Virus record (IMG/VR): IMGVR_UViG_3300027302_000032
Coordinates: 1-23,061 of that record
DNA: 23,061 nucleotides
From: a virus
Reading direction: 5' to 3' (one strand)
Positions 1-22,924 of this stretch are shown piece after piece. The notes under the pieces were generated by a model. It ran no database searches. It saw only the letters and a list, made by a program, of their open reading frames with translations, and was not told the DNA's origin. Every line of letters starts with the position of its first letter. The first letter of the stretch is position 1. The position numbers were made by a program, and so were the translations under genes.

Positions 1-746
1 GCTTGGGGCAGTGCAGGTTGCGCACCCGTCTCAGCCTTAGACGGCACCATCTTGAAGTCGATGGCGTTCTTGGCATCTTCGGTCACGCTCTGTGCCTTGG
101 CCAGGGCCCACTCCTCTTGCGACAGGGGGCGCACAGCGCGGAACTTCATGACCGGCACAGCTTCGCTGGTGTCAAAGCGGGCTTCGGTCACCAAGCCAGT
201 GATGGGGATGCCATGACCTGACAGGAACTTACCAAACGCTTGCAGGGGCATCTTCTCGCCTTCAGCCTTACCGAAGTACGACTTGGCGGGCACCGACAGG
301 CGATAGATATTGCCGCCGATGTCATGCTCCAATGCAACAGCAAGACGCTTGCTGAAACGGCATGCACGGGCTTTGCCTTCACCGGAACCTTCGATGTTCT
401 GGGGGCAGGTAGCGCATGCAGAGCTTTGCGGGTTGACCACTTCTGGCTCGGGCTTCACGCCTTCGGCAGACCAGCAGGCAGGCTTGATGTCTTTGCCTTC
501 TTCATATTTCTCGGCGTAGTAGGTGCGTGAGACGCCCTTGCCACTGGCGATGATGACGAAGTTCATTGCGCGGTCCTCATTGCGTGCGACCTCTTCGCCG
601 CCTACGACCATACGCCACACACCGCCCTTGATGGAGATTTGCTTGCCGCCGGAGCTGCCTGCAATATCTTTGGTTGTGGAGTCCTGCTGGTCGCGCAGGT
701 AGTCGGGGATCATGGAACCGGATTGGAAAAGTGCAATGTTACTCAT
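1..746 (-). CDS. Conserved phage-type protein with a four-cysteine cluster, 3' end cut by the window
   Basis: The reading frame is open from an ATG at 746 to the window edge (at least 248 codons), so the C-terminus is missing. The start is MSNIALFQSG, preceded by an AAGGAAAT-type ribosome site. Four cysteines at about residues 91, 111, 114 and 129 (PAC, ACATC and RAC contexts) could bind zinc. Predicted content is mixed beta and alpha, with no signal peptide or membrane segment. It is the last gene seen downstream of the promoter at 1287-1314 and of the helicase and polymerase genes, so a DNA-metabolism role such as single-strand DNA binding is possible. That role is inferred from position only; I do not recognise the family. 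Confidence 0.8.
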   Translation of the reverse strand, partial: MSNIALFQSGSMIPDYLRDQQDSTTKDIAGSSGGKQISIKGGVWRMVVGGEEVARNEDRAMNFVIIASGKGVSRTYYAEKYEEGKDIKPACWSAEGVKPEPEVVNPQSSACATCPQNIEGSGEGKARACRFSKRLAVALEHDIGGNIYRLSVPAKSYFGKAEGEKMPLQAFGKFLSGHGIPITGLVTEARFDTSEAVPVMKFRAVRPLSQEEWALAKAQSVTEDAKNAIDFKMVPSKAETGAQPALPQ

Positions 747-1314: not shown

Positions 1315-1711
1315 GCCGGCGCGCGTATTCAGCCATAAGTTCTTGGCTGATGGACTGAATGCCGTAGGCTTCCTGTTCTATGCCGGGGGACTTCTCGCCT
1401 ATGCGCTCGCAGTAGTCCTGCCACACATGCACTGCCTCATGGACTAGCAGGCCTGCAATCTCGATAGGGGTGCGGCCTTCGCAGCTTCGTATACACACAA
1501 TGCAAGCCCGCTCGTTCTTGGCGCTAATCAAGTGGTGGGTAGTAGCGTCTGCCTGCGGGGTTGCAATCCAGTCGCAACGCTCTTTGATTCGCAAATGGTG
1601 CAGGGCTTCGTGAAACTCATCTTCACTCAGGCACAGTGTGAGGAACGGGCCAGGGTGCGCTATGCGGCGGTCCAGCCATTCAAATTTTGATTCGGGTTTT
1701 TTGGGTTTCAT
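1298..1711 (-). CDS. Putative zinc metallopeptidase-like protein (HExxH)
   Basis: 137 residues. The motif HEAVH at residues 91-95 matches the HExxH zinc-binding and catalytic motif, and acidic residues in GIEQEAYG (about 110-117) could supply the third zinc ligand, as in gluzincin-like folds. Protein length is small, so it is a minimal peptidase domain or an inactive relative; substrate unknown. The ATG at 1711 overlaps the TGA of the helicase gene by 4 nt (ATGA) with GGAAATCG upstream, so translation is probably coupled. The 3' end carries the promoter for the next genes. Confidence 0.75.
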   Translation of the reverse strand: MKPKKPESKFEWLDRRIAHPGPFLTLCLSEDEFHEALHHLRIKERCDWIATPQADATTHHLISAKNERACIVCIRSCEGRTPIEIAGLLVHEAVHVWQDYCERIGEKSPGIEQEAYGIQSISQELMAEYARRLDKGI

Positions 1712-3246
1712 TCGATTTCCTGTTTGTATAGTTCGACTAGGCTCAAATGCATGTCAACTTTGTTTTGCAGAAGGCTGTACATTCTGCGCTCAACCGGACT
1801 GCCTTGCAAGTGCGTGACGGTGACATTGTGCTTCTGGCCTGCGCGGTGGGCGCGTGAGTTGGCCTGGATGTAGAGCTCTGTGGAGGCTATTGGACCCCAC
1901 CAGACAACTTGGTCAGCGCGGGTTAGGGTAATCCCGTGGGCGGTTGCTTGTGGCACCAACAACAGAATGCGCGGGTCGTCTTCGGTTTGGAACTGTTTGA
2001 TGATCTCGCCTCGCCGAGTAGCGGACACGTCACCGTGGATTGCGTCCACCGTGTACCCATCTTTTATCAACACCTCTTGCAACATCTGCAATGAGTGGCG
2101 GAACGGCATGAACACCAGCACCTTCTGGTCGGTGCCATCAATAACTTCCTTAAGTGCGGCGTAGCGGGTTGCAATGTCAAACTCCACCACGTCACGGTCG
2201 TCAGTGTAGACAGCGCCCTGCGAGATTTGCAGTAGCTTGTTGAGCATAGCCGCCGCATTGGTTGCAGTGATTTCTGCCCCTGCCGCGATCGTCATCATCT
2301 GCTTGCGGATAGCGCCGTAGTACTTGTCCTGTTGAGCGGTGAGCGGCACCTCGCGGGCAGTGAACAGCAGGTCCGGCAGGTCAAGGCATTCCTCTTTGGT
2401 GAACCGAATCGCTGGCTGTAACACCTTATGCACAACGTCCTGTGCGTCACGCTTGGGCGCCCACTTGTACTGCGTGAGCTTGGTCATGACCTTGTCGCGG
2501 AAGGCGCCAAAGAAGCGGGGCACCGAGTCCGGGTTCACGATCTTGGCGAGGCCATACGCATCCAGCGGCGACTGCGATGCAGGCGTGCCAGTCATCAGCC
2601 ACAGGCGCGTGCTAGGCTTTACAAGCGTTGCCAAGGCTTTCCATCTTTCGGTCTGGACACTCTTGATTGCGTTGGCTTCGTCAACGATAATGAGATCGAA
2701 GCCCCCTGCTTGCAGTTCGGGAGTGACTACCTTTACGCCGTCGAAATTGATGATGATGAATTCGTAGTTGCCCTTGACGATCTCTTGGCGCTTGGCCCGT
2801 GAGCCAGTCGCAATCGCCACGGTGCGATGCATCACCGTACGGAACAAGTCAGACCGCCATGCCGTCTCCATGATGGACACCGGGCACACAATCAATACGC
2901 GCTTCACGCGCCCCTGCCGCATCAAGTAGTCGGCCGCCCATGCTGCCGCACTGGTCTTGCCGGTACCAGCCTCATTGAACACATAGCACCGTGGGTGCAT
3001 GGTGAGGAAGTGCGCGGTGTCGCGCTGGTGTTCGAACGGTGTGTACACGCCGGGCCAGTCGTAGCGTCCCAGGATCGGGCTTGGCACGTCTTTGATACCC
3101 AGGTTGCGTAGCAGTTGCACCTCGTCAAAGCCCCAGTTAACCAGCACTTGATCGCCTTCCAACACCTTGCTCTTGGGGATGAGCGCAGTGATCTGCGCCG
3201 GGTTCGGCGCGTTAAAAAGCAGTGCTTTATCTTGAATGATTTGCAT
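1708..3246 (-). CDS. SNF2-family DNA helicase/translocase
   Basis: 512 residues of superfamily 2. Motif I is AGTGKTS (93-99), motif II is DEAN (189-192, in place of DEAH), motif III is MTGTPAS (218-224), and motif VI near residues 465-475 reads NSRAHRAGQ, the signature of the Swi2/Snf2 group. It should couple ATP hydrolysis to movement on double-stranded DNA or to strand separation during phage replication or recombination. The length matches compact phage SNF2 proteins lacking accessory domains. The gene follows a strong terminator-like hairpin (3279-3306) about 30 bp before its ATG, so expression may depend on read-through or antitermination. It is coupled to the metallopeptidase-like gene downstream. 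Confidence 0.93.
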   Translation of the reverse strand: MQIIQDKALLFNAPNPAQITALIPKSKVLEGDQVLVNWGFDEVQLLRNLGIKDVPSPILGRYDWPGVYTPFEHQRDTAHFLTMHPRCYVFNEAGTGKTSAAAWAADYLMRQGRVKRVLIVCPVSIMETAWRSDLFRTVMHRTVAIATGSRAKRQEIVKGNYEFIIINFDGVKVVTPELQAGGFDLIIVDEANAIKSVQTERWKALATLVKPSTRLWLMTGTPASQSPLDAYGLAKIVNPDSVPRFFGAFRDKVMTKLTQYKWAPKRDAQDVVHKVLQPAIRFTKEECLDLPDLLFTAREVPLTAQQDKYYGAIRKQMMTIAAGAEITATNAAAMLNKLLQISQGAVYTDDRDVVEFDIATRYAALKEVIDGTDQKVLVFMPFRHSLQMLQEVLIKDGYTVDAIHGDVSATRRGEIIKQFQTEDDPRILLLVPQATAHGITLTRADQVVWWGPIASTELYIQANSRAHRAGQKHNVTVTHLQGSPVERRMYSLLQNKVDMHLSLVELYKQEIE

Positions 3247-4390: not shown

Positions 4391-6286
4391 TCAGCAATCC
4401 CCATAGCTTTCCCCCATGCCGGACTCGCAGGCAAGCGGCAGATCGGGCGCCCACTTGGGGCGCCAGGACATGCATTGCTCAACGTAAGCCTGGGCAGCAT
4501 CGGCTTCCTCTATCGGGGCGATGCAAGCGATAGCGTCATGCACGGTCAGCACCACAGGGTAGCGCTTTTGTACCCGCAGCATCTGCTCCCCGATGACACA
4601 GCGTGCCACGGCTTGGCAAATGTTTTCTGTAACCAGCCCGCCGTACACCTTGGTGCTGACACCCTTGGATTCGTAGCGCCAGCCAGGGCGCGAATCGCCC
4701 ACCACGCGCTCTTCGGTCACCCGGATGAGGCCTGGGTACTGGATGTGCAACCCGCTTGGCAGGGTGATGCCGATGTCGTCCGTCTTGCACAGGCCCGGGA
4801 TGTCGATCGTGGTCTCGTTGCCATAGTGCAGGGACTCCAGCGCCTTGTTGGCACGCTCCCACAGCTCAGGGATGCGGTTGTACGTCTGCCGGTAGGTCAT
4901 GATGATGGACTTGGCTTCGGCTTCAGACACCTCCACCCCAGCTTGCAGCTTCAGGAACGCCCGCAGCTTGACGTGCCCAACGCCGTAGCCCGCGCCCAAA
5001 ATCACGGTCTTGCCCACTTGCCGTTGGGTCTTGTCCACCTGCGCTATCGGCACGCCATAGATACGGCTTGCCATGATCTTGTACACATCTTCTTTGTCTT
5101 CGAAGGCTTGCACCAAGTCGTACTGCCCAGCCATCCAGGCCAGGGTCCGCGCCTCGATCTGCGAAGAGTCGCAGTCAATCACAACGTGCCCGGGGGGTGC
5201 CTTGATAGCCTTCTTGAGCTTGCCGCCGTACATGCCACGGGCAGGGATGTTTTGCAGGTTGACTTTGTCTTGCCCTGACCAACGCCCGGAGTGGGCGCCG
5301 TAGTACCGCAGGGGCACAGGGAACGCGCCTCGCGTGGACATGCCAATGAAGCGGTCAGTGCGGGTCTCTTCCAGCGTGGTCTTGTGTCCCAGCCGGGCGG
5401 ATACCAACGCCTGCACCTGCTCGTCAGGGTGCTCAGCCAGGGTCTTCATGGCTTCGTCTGTCTTGGCAAACGCGTAGGTCATGCGCCCTGTGGTGGCACT
5501 GAGCTTCATGGGTGGGTCTACATTGGCCAGCCGCAACATCTCCGCAAACTTCTCGTTGGACATCAGCAGCTTCTTGATGCCGTCCATGCCTTCTGAAAAG
5601 ATCATGTGGACAAAGTCAGGGTTCGCCCCTTCCAGCATCTTGTCCCGCAGTTGCTCAAGCAATGCCTCTTTGCGGTCACGCACGTCTTGCAGGTGGGCCT
5701 TCAGCATCTGCCCATCCAGCACCAACCTTGGCTCAATGAAGAGGCGCAGGGTCAGGTCAAGCAGCTTCAGCTCTTGCAGGGGGAAGCCATCGTCAAGATA
5801 CTTCTGGAACAACTGGTACGTCAGGTGCACGTCATTGATACAGTATGCGCCGTAGACCCCCAAGTCGGAGGGGTAGAAGTCAGCGAAGCGCTTACCCATT
5901 GCACGCACAACCTCATCGCCCTTCTCACCAAGTCCGGCACGCTCTGCCTGCGACTTCAGGCTGTGGGATTTCTCATGCGGGTACAGGGCACGCGACATGC
6001 CCATGATGTCTGTCCACGCCTTGGGCTTGATGCCGTAGCGCCACGCCATGATGGCGCCATCGAACGCAGTGTTCTGCGCCACGACCAGCTTGTCCGACCA
6101 GTCAATGGCACTCAGCGCTTCTTCAACGTCAGGCTTGGCGTACCAAACAGTCGGTCCATCGTTGTGCTTGATGGCAACGCCAATGGTCTCAAACTGCGGC
6201 GAGCGCACGTACTCCTCCGTGGTGAGCTTGGTAAGGCTGTACTCGGAAGAGTAGTACGTCTCGAAGTCAATGGTGACAATGTTCAT
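4391..6286 (-). CDS. Family A DNA polymerase with 3'-5' exonuclease domain
   Basis: 631 residues. The proofreading domain shows IDFET (D7, E9), QNTAFD (D76) and YCIND (Y148, D152). The polymerase domain shows GRWSGQDKVNLQNIP (334-348), motif A DSSQIEAR (D373), motif B with R422, K426 and Y434 at the spacing of E. coli Pol I R754/K758/Y766, and motif C TVHDAI (H583, D584). The usual glutamate after the motif C aspartate is alanine (A585). There is no 5'-3' nuclease domain, as in many phage polymerases. This is the replicative polymerase candidate. Its ATG overlaps the TGA of the preceding gene (ATGA), and the gap to the Cas4-like gene downstream is about 57 bp. Confidence 0.96.
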   Translation of the reverse strand: MNIVTIDFETYYSSEYSLTKLTTEEYVRSPQFETIGVAIKHNDGPTVWYAKPDVEEALSAIDWSDKLVVAQNTAFDGAIMAWRYGIKPKAWTDIMGMSRALYPHEKSHSLKSQAERAGLGEKGDEVVRAMGKRFADFYPSDLGVYGAYCINDVHLTYQLFQKYLDDGFPLQELKLLDLTLRLFIEPRLVLDGQMLKAHLQDVRDRKEALLEQLRDKMLEGANPDFVHMIFSEGMDGIKKLLMSNEKFAEMLRLANVDPPMKLSATTGRMTYAFAKTDEAMKTLAEHPDEQVQALVSARLGHKTTLEETRTDRFIGMSTRGAFPVPLRYYGAHSGRWSGQDKVNLQNIPARGMYGGKLKKAIKAPPGHVVIDCDSSQIEARTLAWMAGQYDLVQAFEDKEDVYKIMASRIYGVPIAQVDKTQRQVGKTVILGAGYGVGHVKLRAFLKLQAGVEVSEAEAKSIIMTYRQTYNRIPELWERANKALESLHYGNETTIDIPGLCKTDDIGITLPSGLHIQYPGLIRVTEERVVGDSRPGWRYESKGVSTKVYGGLVTENICQAVARCVIGEQMLRVQKRYPVVLTVHDAIACIAPIEEADAAQAYVEQCMSWRPKWAPDLPLACESGMGESYGDC

Positions 6287-9168: not shown

Positions 9169-9488
9169 ACATCAATGTACTCCGTTAGGTTGAATTGTTT
9201 GTCGGTGCTGAACCATAGGATCAGGTCGGGCGGCGGGGCAGTCGCACGGTTCACCGTGTTAGCCACCACAGCCACGTCCACAATCTTCACCAGCCACTCG
9301 GGGCGGGTAGCCAGCTTGCCATGCGCCGAACGATGCACATCAGGCGGGTTGAAGAAACCCTGAAGCCTGTACGTGTCGCCGGTTTGTTCGTATCGGAATT
9401 CGTATCCGTCTTTGGTCATGGTTGCGTAGGTCTCTTTGAATAGATTTGTATTGATGCGCCAAAAGTCCCGCGTCCTATGCTGAGTCAT
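9165..9488 (-). CDS. Hypothetical protein
   Basis: 107 residues from the ATG at 9488 (MTQHRTRDFWRIN), placed 9 nt after a GAGG ribosome site; two longer in-frame starts (9497, 9515) lie too close to or before that site. Predicted beta-rich: YEFRYEQ, DTYRLQGFF and WLVKIVDVAVVAN. Overlaps the stop of the DUF3150-like gene by 14 nt and the next ATG by 4 nt. No recognised family. Confidence 0.7.
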   Translation of the reverse strand: MTQHRTRDFWRINTNLFKETYATMTKDGYEFRYEQTGDTYRLQGFFNPPDVHRSAHGKLATRPEWLVKIVDVAVVANTVNRATAPPPDLILWFSTDKQFNLTEYIDV

Positions 9489-10371
9489 CCGTATCATCCT
9501 CAATCCCCCAGTCAAACGCCGCCAGAATCTCGTCCACCTTCTGCTTGGTCAATGCCCGGGTGCCGTCCTCCTCCCGCAGTTCTTTGGGAGTTACACCAGA
9601 CAATACCTCCTCAAGCTTACGCCGAGCTTTCTCTAGCGATGGGTCTTGCAAGACGTTCATGTGGGTCAGCAGCTCGCACATCTCCAGGGCGCCAGTCACG
9701 ATCGTGTCGTGGAAGATTCGCTTCTTGCCATCCTTCTCAACCACTAGGCGTTCACTGAGGCGCTTCAAGGCGTTGTACAGCCGTGTCCATGAGTCTTGGG
9801 TAGCCGCAACCACCTGCGCCACAGCGCGCTTCTCGTACTGGTCGATGAGGTCGCGTTGCACCTCAGCCTCGATGTCAAGGCGGAAGTCACCTGCGGTTGG
9901 CAACGGCGAGAACGTGACGTTCATGCGGAACTTGTTAGCCACCTGGGCGCGTGAGGGGTACTCATTGCGATCAAACAGCGTGCCGATCTGGAACGCGGCG
10001 GCGGCAACCAGCGTGTCGTACTTGTCCAAGAACTTATCAACAAGTCGGTCAAACTCAGCCTCCAGGCGGTTCATGGTTTGCTTGTAGTCCTGCAACAGGC
10101 CAGTGGGTAAAAGCCGTGCCCCGTAGTCGTTCCACGGTTGCGTCAGGCGGTAGTGCTCGGCACGTACACGGGCTTGGAATTTACTGATGGCGTCCAGCTC
10201 AGGACAGTCAGCAAACAGCGACTTGTACACGGACGCCGCACGGCGCGATGCCGCACCTTTAGCCGCAGTCACTTCAGCTTGGGTGCGCTTGTCTTGCTTG
10301 CGCCCCGAATAGATTGAAATCTCCAGGTCAACGAGCACAGCGGCTCGTGCGATTCCAGCAATGGTAGTCAT
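9475..10371 (-). CDS. DUF3150-like protein, probable partner of the MoxR/VWA pair
   Basis: 298 residues with an excellent AAGGAGAGACGT ribosome site before the ATG at 10371. The N-terminal pattern LVDLEISIYSGRKQDKR, followed by conserved-looking LLPTGLLQDYKQTMNRLEAEF and LVDKFLDKYD, matches my memory of DUF3150 proteins. Those are known to sit beside MoxR-type AAA+ ATPases and VWA proteins in phages and plasmids. Both partners are in this window (16512-17573 and 14422-15588), about 4-6 kb upstream. The rest is long amphipathic helices with no catalytic motif, fitting an adaptor or scaffold. The acidic tail ends WGIEDDTDDSA. Family call moderately sure; function inferred. Confidence 0.75.
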   Translation of the reverse strand: MTTIAGIARAAVLVDLEISIYSGRKQDKRTQAEVTAAKGAASRRAASVYKSLFADCPELDAISKFQARVRAEHYRLTQPWNDYGARLLPTGLLQDYKQTMNRLEAEFDRLVDKFLDKYDTLVAAAAFQIGTLFDRNEYPSRAQVANKFRMNVTFSPLPTAGDFRLDIEAEVQRDLIDQYEKRAVAQVVAATQDSWTRLYNALKRLSERLVVEKDGKKRIFHDTIVTGALEMCELLTHMNVLQDPSLEKARRKLEEVLSGVTPKELREEDGTRALTKQKVDEILAAFDWGIEDDTDDSA

Positions 10372-14413: not shown

Positions 14414-14426
14414 TCTAACCGTTAGA
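14414..14426. repeat. Dispersed palindrome variant, TCTAAC-C-GTTAGA
   Basis: 13-bp perfect inverted repeat with outer T/A pair replacing the usual A/T. It supplies the TAA stop (14424-14422) of the VWA gene and ends 3 bp before the next ATG. An identical 13-mer is at 16504-16516, in the same stop/start position. Confidence 0.9.
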
Positions 14427-15588
14427 CGGAGAGGTCGATAGACGTACCGAACGGCGCGGCGATGCCTGAGGATGTGATCGCCCACAGGGTAGGCACGTTC
14501 GTGTGTCCCCAGTCACCCACGTAGCCGTCAGTGAACTGCACGATAGCCTGCGGGTCCATGCGCTTCTCGCGCAGGTAGTCGAACAACACCGAGCCGTCAG
14601 TGCCGCCGCCACCCTTGACCTTGAGGTCTTGCACAGCGAACTGCCCGTCCTCGAACACCTGATGCCCAGCGACTCGCGTATCCCAGTAAATGACGTGGCA
14701 CTTGGCTGGCTTGACCTGCTCAATGATGACCTTGAGCTCGGACACGAAGCGTGTCATCTCATCGCCACCGAACACAGAGCCTGATGTATCGAAGCCAATC
14801 ACCAGCTCACGCAACGTCACGCCATGCATGGACGGCATGTAAACATCTTGCGATAAGTACCGGCGGTTGGGCTTGCGCCACGTTGACTCGTCACGCCCCG
14901 CACAGGTCTCTTGCACGAAGTCGCGCAGGGCACGCTTCCAGTCCACCTTGGGAGCCAGCACGTCCCCGAAGATGCCGTCCTCAGCACCGGCACCCTTGCC
15001 TGCCAGCTTCTTGCGAAGCATCTCGCCTTGACGCAGGGCACGTTGGATTTCATCGGCACGCTTCTGTACTTCCTCAGGGGTTGCGCCGTCTTGTGCGTCT
15101 TGCCAGTCATGGTCGTCCATGCCCTCGCCCCCACCCTCGGGCGGCGGGTTCTCTTTGAGCTTCTGGTAAATCTGACCCACCGACATGCCACGATATTGCG
15201 GGTCAGGTTGGATACCGAGCTTGGGCATCTTGACGAATCCTTCACCCTTGTCTGCATCTACCAATGCAAGGTTCACGAACAAGTCAGCCGCCACGTTAGC
15301 GAGGTGCATGTTCTCCTCGTGTATCTCACGCCACACATGCAGGTGACGGAACGCCTTGTGTGTCGCCTCATGCAACACAAGAAAGCGTAGCTCGGGGTCA
15401 GTGGGCATGAACTGCTCCACGAACTTGGGGTTGTAGGTCACATCCCAGCCATTGGTCATGGCAGTTGGGATGTTCTCATCGAACTTGACCTTGCCACACG
15501 ACAGCACGCCGGAATAACCAGCGAAGACTTTGTGTTGCATGATTGCGATGTGGGCGCGTTTGATGCGGTCGGGTACGGACATAGCCAT
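14422..15588 (-). CDS. VWA-domain protein with HExxH peptidase-like N-terminus (DUF2201-type)
   Basis: 388 residues. The N-terminal part carries LVLHEATHKAF (HEATH 73-77) and ANVAADLFVN (98-106), the pattern of putative metallopeptidases of the DUF2201 type. A Gly/Pro/Asp-rich linker (about 148-170) leads to a helical region. The C-terminal von Willebrand A domain has the full MIDAS: DTSGS (267-271), GGGGTDGS (327-333) and FTDG (352-355). Known relatives work with MoxR AAA+ ATPases; the one at 16512-17573 is the likely partner. ATG at 15588 has GGAGAAATCA upstream. Palindromes lie on both sides of the gene. Confidence 0.92.
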   Translation of the reverse strand: MAMSVPDRIKRAHIAIMQHKVFAGYSGVLSCGKVKFDENIPTAMTNGWDVTYNPKFVEQFMPTDPELRFLVLHEATHKAFRHLHVWREIHEENMHLANVAADLFVNLALVDADKGEGFVKMPKLGIQPDPQYRGMSVGQIYQKLKENPPPEGGGEGMDDHDWQDAQDGATPEEVQKRADEIQRALRQGEMLRKKLAGKGAGAEDGIFGDVLAPKVDWKRALRDFVQETCAGRDESTWRKPNRRYLSQDVYMPSMHGVTLRELVIGFDTSGSVFGGDEMTRFVSELKVIIEQVKPAKCHVIYWDTRVAGHQVFEDGQFAVQDLKVKGGGGTDGSVLFDYLREKRMDPQAIVQFTDGYVGDWGHTNVPTLWAITSSGIAAPFGTSIDLSV

Positions 15589-16503: not shown

Positions 16504-16516
16504 TCTAACCGTTAGA
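16504..16516. repeat. Dispersed palindrome variant, TCTAAC-C-GTTAGA
   Basis: Same 13-mer as at 14414-14426. It supplies the TAA stop (16514-16512) of the MoxR gene and ends 3 bp before the ATG of the 55-residue gene. Confidence 0.9.
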
Positions 16517-17573
16517 AGTACTTGCCGAGCTTGGCGGCGGCGCTTGTGAACTGGCGGTTCTTACACGCCATGCCCACCTTGTTGCGGTTGCCTGCAAGGG
16601 AAGTAATGAACAACGCATGCGCCTCGAAGTGAGTCCATCGTGTGACGTACGTCATGACCGCATCGAGCGTGTCGGCATTGACGCGAGAGCTGAGCATGAA
16701 CGCAAGGATAAACAACGCAGACACGCTGTCGTTGTCAGGTATCTTGGTCTTGTTGGGGTCCTTCACGATGTTCTCGAACAGCGGCAACTTGTCGGACAGG
16801 TTGACCAACGCCTCCATCTGACGGGCGGCAGACTCACCGATCGTGCCGGACAACGCAGGCAACAACGCCTCGCCCAATGCGTCACGGTTCTCAATCAGGT
16901 GCGATGCCTTAGCCAGCGAACGCGGCGAACAGAACGTGCGGGTGTTGCCGTTCATGGGGTTGAAGATGTACGGGTTCTTCTCGTTCTTGCCAAGCTCTGT
17001 GTAGCATTGGAACACCTCGCTGGTTTGCTTGGCGAACGCCAGCACCTCGGGGGACACGCCGTGCATGGTGCCCCACTCAAGCCATTGGTCAACAGTCGGA
17101 CCTGCCACGATAACCTCGGACATGCGGTTGTATGCATGGGCAGGGATGTTGTCGCCCACGCCGTCAGTATCAAGGTTGGTTGTTGCAAACACGATAGACC
17201 CAGTAGGCAGGGGCACGTCACCAAGGCGGCGCTCAAGGATGACAGGCAACAGCATGTTCAGCACAGGGCGGGATGCCTTGCCCAGCTCGTCAAGCATCAG
17301 GATGACAGGCTTGTTCTGGTCACGCCCGATACCGAAGCGGGCGTTCGGTGCGTAGTGGGTGACCATTGTGTCTCGGTCAATGACAGGCATGCCGAGGTCA
17401 CCGAGGTCAAGGTTGGCTACGTCAATGTAGCAGGGCAGGTAGTCAGGCAATGCCTCGCCCACCATCTGTAAGACAGAGGACTTGCCCACGCCAGGGCGAC
17501 CACGCAGAATGAATGTGTTGGTAACGCCGCAGTTACGGATGAGGGAAGCGGCTTGGTTCAGGTTAACTTGCAT
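16512..17573 (-). CDS. MoxR-type AAA+ ATPase
   Basis: 353 residues. Walker A is GRPGVGKSS (25-33), Walker B is ILMLDE (91-96), sensor 1 is FATTN (129-133), with a candidate arginine finger in AYNRM (147-151) and sensor 2 in SPRSLAKAS. The compact single AAA+ module with short N-terminus is typical of MoxR/CobS-like ATPases, which remodel protein complexes together with VWA partners. ATG at 17573 has AGGAAATAAA upstream. Palindromes sit on both sides (16504-16516 and 17596-17610), as for the VWA gene. Confidence 0.93.
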   Translation of the reverse strand: MQVNLNQAASLIRNCGVTNTFILRGRPGVGKSSVLQMVGEALPDYLPCYIDVANLDLGDLGMPVIDRDTMVTHYAPNARFGIGRDQNKPVILMLDELGKASRPVLNMLLPVILERRLGDVPLPTGSIVFATTNLDTDGVGDNIPAHAYNRMSEVIVAGPTVDQWLEWGTMHGVSPEVLAFAKQTSEVFQCYTELGKNEKNPYIFNPMNGNTRTFCSPRSLAKASHLIENRDALGEALLPALSGTIGESAARQMEALVNLSDKLPLFENIVKDPNKTKIPDNDSVSALFILAFMLSSRVNADTLDAVMTYVTRWTHFEAHALFITSLAGNRNKVGMACKNRQFTSAAAKLGKYF

Positions 17574-20115: not shown

Positions 20116-20143
20116 GATGATCTCCATTAAAAGTAAACAAAGC

Positions 20144-20185
20144 GGTGAAACAGCTCACCCAATAGAGGACTGCGTGCAATCCTCT
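20144..20185 (-). promoter_or_regulatory. Two stem-loops before the first gene
   Basis: In the minus-strand RNA a 9-bp stem with a tetraloop (AGAGGAUUG / CAGUCCUCU, one G-U pair, 20185-20164) is followed by a 5-bp stem (GGTGA / TCACC, 20159-20144) and a loosely T-rich stretch. Possible attenuator or stabilising 5' structure. Confidence 0.45.
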
Positions 20186-20274
20186 ACCAGTTAGTCTGTC
20201 ATTCAGTTGGCATCTAACTCTGGGCATCTCCCAGGTCGGTACGATAGGGTTTGTCGGTGTGATTTACTGGGGCT

Positions 20275-20289
20275 AACTAACTGTTAGTT
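20275..20289. repeat. Dispersed palindrome, centre T
   Basis: Perfect AACTAACTGTTAGTT inside the leader, more than 150 bp from the next gene. A further half-site CAGTTAGT is near 20188. Confidence 0.9.
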
Positions 20290-20410
20290 CCCATCCCACA
20301 TCCCTCGTTGGTGTCAACTGCTGTGCGCGCTGTGAACTTGTGTGCCCCCTCATATATAGGTGGTAGGCGTTGTCCATCCACAGCCTGCATCCAGTACTTT
20401 CCAACTTAAA

Positions 20411-20442
20411 GGGTTCATTGAGCGTTAGCCCAAGAGGAACCC
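20411..20442 (-). promoter_or_regulatory. Stem-loop in the leader
   Basis: Minus-strand RNA pairs GGGUUC with GAACCC (6 bp); inside, after a small internal loop, UUGGGC pairs with GCUCAA (one G-U) around a UAAC loop. Followed by only three U residues, so a weak terminator at best; could be a protein-binding element. Confidence 0.5.
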
Positions 20443-20631
20443 ACCCATTTAGGTACGTTGCATTTGCATTGCATTGTGCTGTTACCACACAATGCCACGA
20501 CTGACTACGTGACGCCTATTCACCAATGTAAGGATATTTGACCTGCGTTCGGGGAGTCTTAGTGCCTCTTGTTTTTGCGAGTCTGTCACCTGTTGGCTTC
20601 TGGATTGTTCCAGCGGCGGTGTGTTTGGGGC

Positions 20632-20652
20632 GCCAACTAACAGTTAGTTGGC
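20632..20652. repeat. Longest dispersed palindrome, 21 bp
   Basis: The 15-bp core AACTAACAGTTAGTT is extended on both sides by GCC/GGC to give a perfect 10+1+10 inverted repeat. It lies about 125 bp downstream of the predicted start of transcription of the main operon, the position of a roadblock or early stop site. Confidence 0.92.
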
Positions 20653-20730
20653 ATCCGGTGTCGGGGTAGGTTGTTAAAGAACAATGCCGTGTGGGGCGAT
20701 GCCCACAGAGGGAAATTAAGGTTGATACGA

Positions 20731-20754
20731 TAAAGAGTTTTGCGAGAAATATTT
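20731..20754. repeat. Direct repeat copy 1 (24 bp), downstream of promoter
   Basis: TAAAGAGTTTTGCGAGAAAT continuing ATTT, matching 20838-20861 at 22 of 24 positions, 107 bp apart. The two copies flank the promoter 20783-20811. Confidence 0.85.
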
Positions 20755-20782
20755 TTATCACAACTCAACCGAAACAGCCTCT

Positions 20783-20811
20783 ATTGTAGCTTAAATCTTA
20801 TGGAAAGTCAA
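20783..20811 (-). promoter_or_regulatory. Strong sigma-70-type promoter of the main leftward operon
   Basis: Minus strand TTGACT (20811-20806), 17-bp spacer, TACAAT (20788-20783): 5 of 6 matches in each box with ideal spacing. Predicted start near 20776. Direct repeats at 20731-20754 and 20838-20861 flank it and could be operators allowing looping. Confidence 0.8.
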
Positions 20812-20837
20812 GGGGGTAGAGGTCTATTGAGTCTTGG

Positions 20838-20861
20838 TAAAGAGTTTTCCGAGAAACATTT
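20838..20861. repeat. Direct repeat copy 2 (24 bp), upstream of promoter
   Basis: TAAAGAGTTTTCCGAGAAAC continuing ATTT, 22 of 24 identical to 20731-20754. Confidence 0.85.
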
Positions 20862-21115
20862 GAATGGAGAAATTTAGGGCGAAAAAGGACTACTAATGGT
20901 TTCGAAAATGGGGGCGGAGGTTACGTGGTTACGCAAGGGTTACGCGGCGAAACGCGGTTTGTAATGAGGGTGGGGGTATCGTAAGTTATTGATTTCATTA
21001 CGTTACTTGCGTAACAGGTGGGGGATGTTACGTGGTTACGCGGTTTTGGGTAAATGTACGTATCCGGCACTAGGCAAAGGGGGGTTTGAGCGCGGCGTTT
21101 TTTAACTTTTTGGGG

Positions 21116-21130
21116 AACTAACGGTTAGTT
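21116..21130. repeat. Dispersed palindrome, centre G
   Basis: Perfect AACTAACGGTTAGTT within the GTTACG array region. Confidence 0.9.
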
Positions 21131-21178
21131 GGGCGGGTTGCCGGTCGTGCACTTTTCAGAAACTGCGTAACGCGTAAC

Positions 21179-21219
21179 GAGAGAGAGAGAGAGAGAGAGA
21201 AAGTATTATATATATATAT
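21179..21219. repeat. (GA)11 microsatellite and TA tract
   Basis: Eleven GA units (21179-21200) then AAG and an alternating TA run (about 21207-21219). Simple repeats are unusual in compact phage DNA. The TA run could be the easily melted part of an origin; on the minus strand it contains TATAAT but has no matching -35 box. Confidence 0.85.
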
Positions 21220-21368
21220 GGTATTAGCGTTTCGTAACCCACAGTTGCAACCTTTGGTATTCATTTGCTGTGTTACGCGCTCGCGTAACAACTGCGTAAC
21301 AGCGTAACGGAAATGCCATGATGTTACGAGCGTAACAAGGTGGGATGTTACGAGCGTTACAAGCCACG

Positions 21369-21382
21369 AACTAACGTTAGTT
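21369..21382. repeat. Dispersed palindrome, 14-bp form without centre base
   Basis: AACTAACGTTAGTT, same half-sites but joined directly. Another 14-bp form is at 21462-21475, 93 bp away. Confidence 0.88.
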
Positions 21383-21461
21383 GGTGCGCCGAGAAGTGTG
21401 ACAGTGACCCCTGCGGGGGCACGCAGGAGGCGAAGCCTCCCCCAATGCAACGCCTACCATG

Positions 21462-21475
21462 AACTAACGTTAGTT
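21462..21475. repeat. Dispersed palindrome, 14-bp form without centre base
   Basis: AACTAACGTTAGTT, identical to 21369-21382. Between the two are small hairpins CCTGCG/CGCAGG (21410-21427) and GGAGGC/GCCTCC (21426-21440). Confidence 0.88.
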
Positions 21476-21580
21476 GGCAACCCCGCCGTGCCGCGCCGCC
21501 GCCCCGCCGCCGAAGGCTCGCTCACTCACGCGCGCACCCACTCGCTCACGCGCTCACTCGCCCTACGCTACTATCACGAA
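21476..21580. repeat. GC-rich low-complexity non-coding stretch
   Basis: CCG-type repeats (about 21481-21511) give way to a series built on CTCGCTCAC and CGCTCACTC words (about 21517-21560). Reading frames here encode only Ala/Pro/Arg/Ser-rich peptides without ribosome sites, so I see no gene. Confidence 0.6.
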
Positions 21581-21602
21581 AACACCCGCCGTAGCGGGTG
21601 TT
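21581..21602 (-). terminator. Rho-independent terminator of the first operon
   Basis: Minus strand 9-bp perfect stem AACACCCGC / GCGGGTGTT around a TACG loop, then TTTT counting the stem end. It begins 5 bp after the stop codon of the 66-residue gene. Confidence 0.75.
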
Positions 21603-21606
21603 GGTG

Positions 21607-22357: not shown

Positions 22358-22924
22358 TTATTCCTTGAATTCGGAATCAATCTCCACCGCGAGGTCGATC
22401 AACGCGCCGACTTGCGAATCGCGATTCAAGAGACGCGCCTGCTGAATCGCCTTGCGATAGGTGTCCAGCAATTCCTTGTCGGTGGTGGTGACAACCTTGC
22501 CAGCCTTTTTTGGATCGGTTGCGGAACCCTTGGTGTTTTCCGCTTTGTCCACTTTGGCGGTGCGCTTAGACCAAGGCAAAAGGCGCTCGGTGTCTTGAAA
22601 CAGACGCGGTGTCCATTCAATGTTGAAGTGGAGGGCGCGCATCGCCGATTGTGCATAGTTGGTGAAGGTGCGCTTATCCATTGTCCCTTCACCCTCGCAA
22701 GCGTCAATGACAACTTGCGATTCGCGAATCGCCTTGCCCAATGCGGTGCAAGTGGCTTGGTCACGCTTGCCAGTCGCGAGGAAAACCTCATCGACATAGG
22801 CTTGCATTTGAAAGCGAATGGTATCGGACAGCGTAGCCGATGCGGTATCGAAAACCTCATGGGCGCCGATGATGACGGAGGCGCGCTGGTCAAACGCGGG
22901 AAAGACCGACTGAGACTTAGACAT
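22358..22924 (-). CDS. Hypothetical protein, first gene of the first operon
   Basis: 188 residues from the ATG at 22924 (MSKSQSVFPAFDQRASV) with GGAGTTTTT upstream. Helical N-terminal 100 residues, a Lys/Thr/Ala-rich linker (about 120-145, KVDKAENTKGSATDPKKAGK), then a helical C-terminal part. The linker suggests two domains. Transcribed from the palindrome-associated promoter at 22988-23016, so perhaps one of the earliest or most tightly controlled products. No family recognised. Confidence 0.78.
   Translation of the reverse strand: MSKSQSVFPAFDQRASVIIGAHEVFDTASATLSDTIRFQMQAYVDEVFLATGKRDQATCTALGKAIRESQVVIDACEGEGTMDKRTFTNYAQSAMRALHFNIEWTPRLFQDTERLLPWSKRTAKVDKAENTKGSATDPKKAGKVVTTTDKELLDTYRKAIQQARLLNRDSQVGALIDLAVEIDSEFKE

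Follow-up and report, generated by a model that had tools for sequence, protein, structure and literature searches.

A conserved array of short GTTAC iterons as the very probable replication origin of a family of large phages

The stretch of DNA analysed here (the window) comprises 23,061 nucleotides of the virus record IMGVR_UViG_3300027302_000032, and our subject is an array of short repeats, or iterons, sharing the core GTTAC, which lies in a gap (about 20130-21606) where we found no convincing gene. Between 20920 and 21352 it holds 16 exact GTTACG/CGTAAC hexamers in both orientations, compared with a mean of 1.19 and a maximum of 5 in dinucleotide shuffles of 20900-21400 (n=2000), and two further sites, GTTACT (21002) and GTTACA (21356), bring the GTTAC cores to 18 and extend the array to 21360. 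The exact count, its excess over chance, the two orientations and the gene-free setting had already been described in an earlier sequence-only reading and all held; of the GA and TA microsatellites that it placed beside the array, both exist and both lie within it (21179-21200 and about 21204-21219). Left of the gap nearly every gene is on the minus strand, among them those for a family A DNA polymerase (PolA), a PD-(D/E)XK nuclease and an SNF2 helicase. That reading was also right to call the array upstream of replication genes, because the PolA, exonuclease and SNF2-helicase genes sit downstream of it in this leftward unit. The parts of the array are as follows.

20920..21360, both orientations: iteron array, 18 GTTAC/GTAAC sites (16 as GTTACG), predicted replication origin
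20920..21040: left block, seven sites, +(8)+(11)+ 63 +(9)- 16 +(8)+, spacings also present in the relative L017
21041..21165: central gap with one dispersed palindrome inside (21116-21130); the inner pairs are 132 bp apart, measured start to start
21166..21178, minus strand: inner pair CGTAACGCGTAAC, adjoining the GA/TA tract
21179..21219: (GA)11 + (TA)n tract, predicted DNA-unwinding element
21233..21360: right block, nine sites, one single and then eight

No direct DNA relatives of the window were found among annotated phages. With the AAA ATPase and p188 proteins of the window as queries, we retrieved 13 viral contigs, and matches to the primase-helicase described below added more. Three of them, 61-65 kb long (G003, G008 and G010), share the gene order TerL-TerS, p188, array place, AAA ATPase, PolA and primase-helicase, the array position in the relatives falling between divergent early and late units. 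The sequence-only reading had proposed looking for the same hexamer array in related genomes, and a dense GTTAC array indeed occupies the same syntenic position in 14 of the 19 related contigs covering the place, the window counted among the 14 (the window, G001, G003, G004, G006, G008, G011, G013, G014, G016, G017, G020, G021 and G025). GA/TA-like tracts lie within the arrays of most relatives; in G015 (L248:1-130), a further one of the 19, the contig end falls within the array, in an AT/CT tract.

The sites themselves are conserved beyond their surroundings. Identity in five pairwise alignments was 87-100% at the GTTAC sites, against 46-81% at the other bases: 0.89 versus 0.47 between the window and L017, and 0.87-1.00 versus 0.46-0.81 in the four other pairs. 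Shifted masks reached the observed site identity in 0/599, 1/499, 3/499, 0/499 and 1/499 cases. Judged by these alignments, the GTTAC sites are under purifying selection. Layout is shared as well: L017 has the 132-bp centre of the window and its left-block spacings (8, 16, 9, 63, 11 and 8, outward from the centre), and the gap between inner pairs measures 116-141 bp in most relatives, some of which carry an extra site within it. In several relatives the sites number about 12 and are spaced almost as mirror images, for instance in G008, whose 12 sites are spaced 8-20-14-85-8|124|8-85-14-21-8, and similarly G017.

The primase-helicase of this family (962 aa in G003) combines a DUF927 helicase with a PrimPol-like N-terminus. 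Its profile matches are PDB 5dgk, the Cch protein of the staphylococcal cassette chromosome SCCmec (6e-12), and 8tch, the Rep protein of the Staphylococcus aureus pathogenicity island (SaPI) SaPIbov1 (5e-11). An AlphaFold2 model covering residues 380-962 had the same two proteins as its only significant PDB matches (8tch, the SaPIbov1 initiation-of-replication protein, 5e-18; 5dgk, 5e-17), and in this model the C-terminal stretch of about 80 residues resembles a winged helix, with helices at 510-519 and 524-533 and strands at 544-547 and 560-567 (model numbering). Such a helicase, homologous to SaPI Rep/Cch, is encoded in G003, G008, G010, G015 and G018. The window contains only the gene that precedes it in the relatives: its left end falls inside that gene, and the window's own primase-helicase gene is predicted to lie just beyond.

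Independent of this family, we scanned viral contigs for GTTACGCNGTTACGC using no protein information and obtained 119 stretches, 60 of which had an array, defined as 8 or more GTTAC sites within 450 bp. Most of these arrays adjoin the 3' end of an initiator-helicase gene. The longest open reading frame near each of the 60 arrays matched in Pfam DUF5906 (18), AAA_25 (11), Toprim_3 (10) and VapE (10), with DUF927, DUF3987 and PriCT_2 once each, among others, and pointed its 3' end towards the array in 54/60. At 32 control loci with the same pattern and no array, DUF5906, AAA_25, Toprim_3 and VapE each scored 0, one DUF3631 and one DnaG-type primase being found. In the element L240/L194, a DUF927 helicase related to that of the window family, and matching SaPI Rep at 3e-23, stops 3 bp away from a GTTAC array that includes a TA tract. 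A Toprim_3/AAA_25 primase-helicase family with GTTACG arrays at the 3' end was seen in L123, L161, L167, L204, L218, L222, L226 and L239; it has no BLAST relation to the DUF5906 and DUF927 sets. We do not claim common descent of GTTAC recognition across helicase families, because the scan preselected the GTTAC word.

The converse, motif-blind search began from one helicase, the DUF5906 protein of L131, which found 45 loci in bacterial genomes, 43 of them with enough flank. In 41/43, the 700 bp lying 3' of the matched gene segment contained one and the same hexamer 7 or more times, compared with 1/43 for control segments inside the gene and 1/40 further downstream. The word differed among the homologues (GTTACG, ATTACG, TGTGCG, TGTGCA, GTGAAG, TACGGT and others), as would be predicted from co-evolution of iterons and initiators. 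The blocks were mirror-oriented in 38 of the 39 loci analysed, strictly so in 26; 27/39 had 11-12 sites, most commonly as 6+6 and 6+5, with a median gap of 88 bp. These counts are not of independent events, since many of the prophages are related and L255 is the query itself.

In satellite islands, arrangements of this kind have a known reader. The C-terminal domains of SaPI Rep bind iteron origins, the DUF927 protein Cch is related to SaPIbov1 Rep, and Cch2 requires a 5-bp iteron, AAGTG (PMC7581432). Furthermore, repeats of opposite orientation in SaPI origins direct two head-to-head hexamers (PMC9894130), and the origins of phage-inducible chromosomal islands (PICIs) always consist of two iteron sets around an AT-rich region, the origin of EcCICFT073 having been tested in a plasmid (PMC6092414). 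The window array resembles these origins in its dense, short repeats of opposite orientation, far above chance, and in its two iteron sets about an AT-rich stretch, the GA/TA tract adjoining the inner pair and so lying off the exact centre. The classical plasmid origin of the RepA/RepE type does not fit, as the repeat core measures 5-6 bp in both orientations and not about 17-22 bp as in long direct iterons; no RepA-type gene was identified, and DnaA boxes were not searched for.

The iteron-type origin proposed by the sequence-only reading is strongly supported by synteny, site conservation, the protein-blind helicase linkage and the helicase homology to SaPIbov1 Rep. The array, with its conserved sites and layout, is very probably the replication origin, of SaPI/PICI type, in a family of large phages, most of them uncultured, and we consider it likely, from the sequences compared, that it is read by the phage's own self-loading hexameric primase-helicase. 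We infer that the C-terminal winged-helix-like domain of the PrimPol-DUF927 protein would bind the GTTAC(G/A) words, and that the sites flanking the roughly 130 bp centre would recruit two hexameric rings facing each other. The rings would open up the TA/GA tract next to the inner pair, and bidirectional replication could be started by the helicase with its fused primase, together with the phage's PolA. Since the array layout is that of satellite islands such as SaPIs, the SaPI mechanism of a self-loading helicase appears, by analogy, to operate in full-size phages too.

Several observations weigh against this interpretation. Four contigs that cover the place, at least largely, have no dense GTTAC array (G018, G010, G009 and L006), and two of them, G018 and G010, encode the same helicase. 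The array lies about 20 kb from the helicase gene in G003 and G008, unlike in SaPIs. Outside the window family, the link between motif and DUF927 is one element only, L240/L194, and confidence in the helicase model is moderate (mean pLDDT 75). The window and L017 have 17-18 sites of mixed orientation and not 12. Finally, GC skew, which the sequence-only reading had suggested as a check, gave weak evidence, its minimum lying 2-7 kb from the array in 4/5 genomes and 16 kb in the fifth, with gene direction as a confounder. We also looked for variant iterons in the GTTAC-less relatives: L006 had no cluster, and the words of G018 (two GTTAC and three GTATC, at G018:38014-38340, L245, where the GA tract is kept) were unconvincing and may represent a drifting iteron.

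Other features of the window are as follows.

20783..20811, minus strand: sigma-70-like promoter TTGACT-17-TACAAT (consensus match only), outside the array and directed into the early unit
22358..22924, minus strand: p188, a conserved protein predicted to be all-helical, flanking the array on the late side
4391..6286, minus strand: family A DNA polymerase (PolA), early unit
1708..3246, minus strand: SNF2-type helicase, early unit
3..746, minus strand: start of the gene directly preceding the primase-helicase gene in relatives, 82-84% identical

The early unit also contains a conserved module of an AAA ATPase (16512-17573), a VWA-like metallopeptidase DUF2201 (14422-15588) and a DUF3150 protein (9475-10371).

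The array might be an origin whose iterons are read by a different protein, be it a small helix-turn-helix (HTH)-like protein encoded beside it, p188 or a host factor, the DUF927 helicase being recruited indirectly. A short HTH-like gene adjoins the array in G001, G003, G004, G006 and G008, p188 flanks it throughout the relatives, GTTAC arrays adjoin at least three helicase families, and the Pseudomonas phage KPP25 keeps a GTTACGA array though its helicase is of the DUF5906 type. However, no HTH-like gene was found next to the array in the window, the unrelated phages that bear such arrays share helicases, with no p188 or HTH gene identified there, and SaPI Rep and Cch2 themselves bind their own iterons (PMC7581432). 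We regard a different reader as unlikely. As for p188 in the role of initiator, it was set aside, having an all-helical model without any PDB match, no family, and no match in Pfam or PHROG.

It is considerably less likely still that the array is a regulatory region in which transcription-factor operators control the divergent early and late units. The array does lie between these units, about 110 bp from its left edge to the sigma-70-like promoter, a counterpart of which is visible in L017, and dispersed palindromes occur nearby. Yet the predicted promoter is free of GTTAC sites, the palindromes already resemble the operators, and in unrelated phages, where a divergent unit of this sort is not required, the same word is arrayed next to initiator helicases. 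The window palindrome, AACTAAC(N)GTTAGTT, has 11 copies (8492, 13025, 18457, 19048, 19879, 20275, 20635, 21116, 21369, 21462 and 23018), and each relative has a repeated palindrome of its own: ATGTAATnATTACAT in L017, TCTAATATTAGA in G001, G003, G004 and G015, TCTAAGCTTAGA in G011 and AACTAATATTAGTT in G010. Found mostly within the early half of the genome, these look like operators of a repressor or activator with diverged specificity. The sequence-only reading had linked their GTTAG half-site to GTTAC through related or competing proteins; we reject this link, because the palindromes vary, becoming quite different between relatives, while GTTAC persists.

A packaging (pac/cos) site bound by the small terminase subunit is highly improbable: the TerS and TerL genes of the relatives are indeed found on the late side at a distance of about 2 kb, but a terminase gene neighbours only 1/60 motif-only arrays, against 18 DUF5906 matches, the neighbours there being helicases and not terminases, and an AT tract within the array suits melting, not packaging.

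Among known systems, the preferred reading of an origin served by the phage's own helicase finds its closest counterpart in SaPIbov1 Rep (PDB 8tch) and its origin, which share with it a self-loading helicase of the DUF927 type, judged by profile and fold prediction, and the short opposite iterons about an AT-rich stretch. In contrast, the phage protein carries a PrimPol-like N-terminus in addition, and the SaPI origin lies directly downstream of rep, an arrangement not found in the window family and seen in L240 and most other surveyed phages. The family differs from known SaPI/PICI origins in its large carrier (a 61-68 kb phage, not a satellite), the origin-initiator distance of about 20 kb and its sites, largely in mixed-orientation pairs. 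SCCmec Cch (PDB 5dgk), the second structural match, is considered together with Cch2, which needs AAGTG; only three iterons were described for Cch2, and SCCmec elements are chromosomal cassettes. Phage KPP25 (Kochitakasuvirus) has a PolA 34% identical and, in an intergenic gap, nine GTTAC sites arrayed about an AT-rich island, although its DUF5906 helicase gene is about 12 kb away; we saw no origin annotation at this array (L041:1007-1490, about 26.3-26.8 kb). KPP25 is a cultured phage, with near-identical DNA in phiR18, CRPAP1904 and YMC17/07/R4900a. Other short repeats occupy comparable intergenic gaps in distant relatives, for instance about 9 copies of GTCATAC in Pag-Yong1 (L038:6130-6480) and 6 copies of CTAGGA in HTVC023P (L037:2313-2486).

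The alpha protein of phage P4 (ori1/crr) is, like the proposed initiator, a primase-helicase recognising short iterons in both orientations, and we take the surveyed DUF5906 homologues to be of the same general class. It differs in belonging to a helicase family other than DUF927, and P4 needs two cis elements kilobases apart. The Gram-negative PICI origins (EcCICFT073 pri-rep-ori) also place two iteron sets around an AT-rich melting region (PMC6092414), whereas the origin of the window family sits in full-size phages.

Most phage origins are unmapped, and here a conserved predicted origin and a named initiator family become available for 61-68 kb, mainly metagenomic phages, which would extend to whole phages an origin type formerly regarded as restricted to satellite islands (PMC6092414). 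More tentatively, and with doubt somewhat outweighing confidence, we suggest that the PICI/SaPI-type origin may be a general class in tailed phages, with six mirrored iterons per side (one per hexamer subunit), separable from the helicase gene as in the 61-68 kb family, and with a word that drifts between homologous initiators. The recurrent 11-12 sites in mirrored blocks would offer a clean test of head-to-head assembly of self-loading hexameric helicases on double-stranded DNA. Iteron words differ among the many homologous helicases, which may thus serve as natural material for decoding origin recognition.
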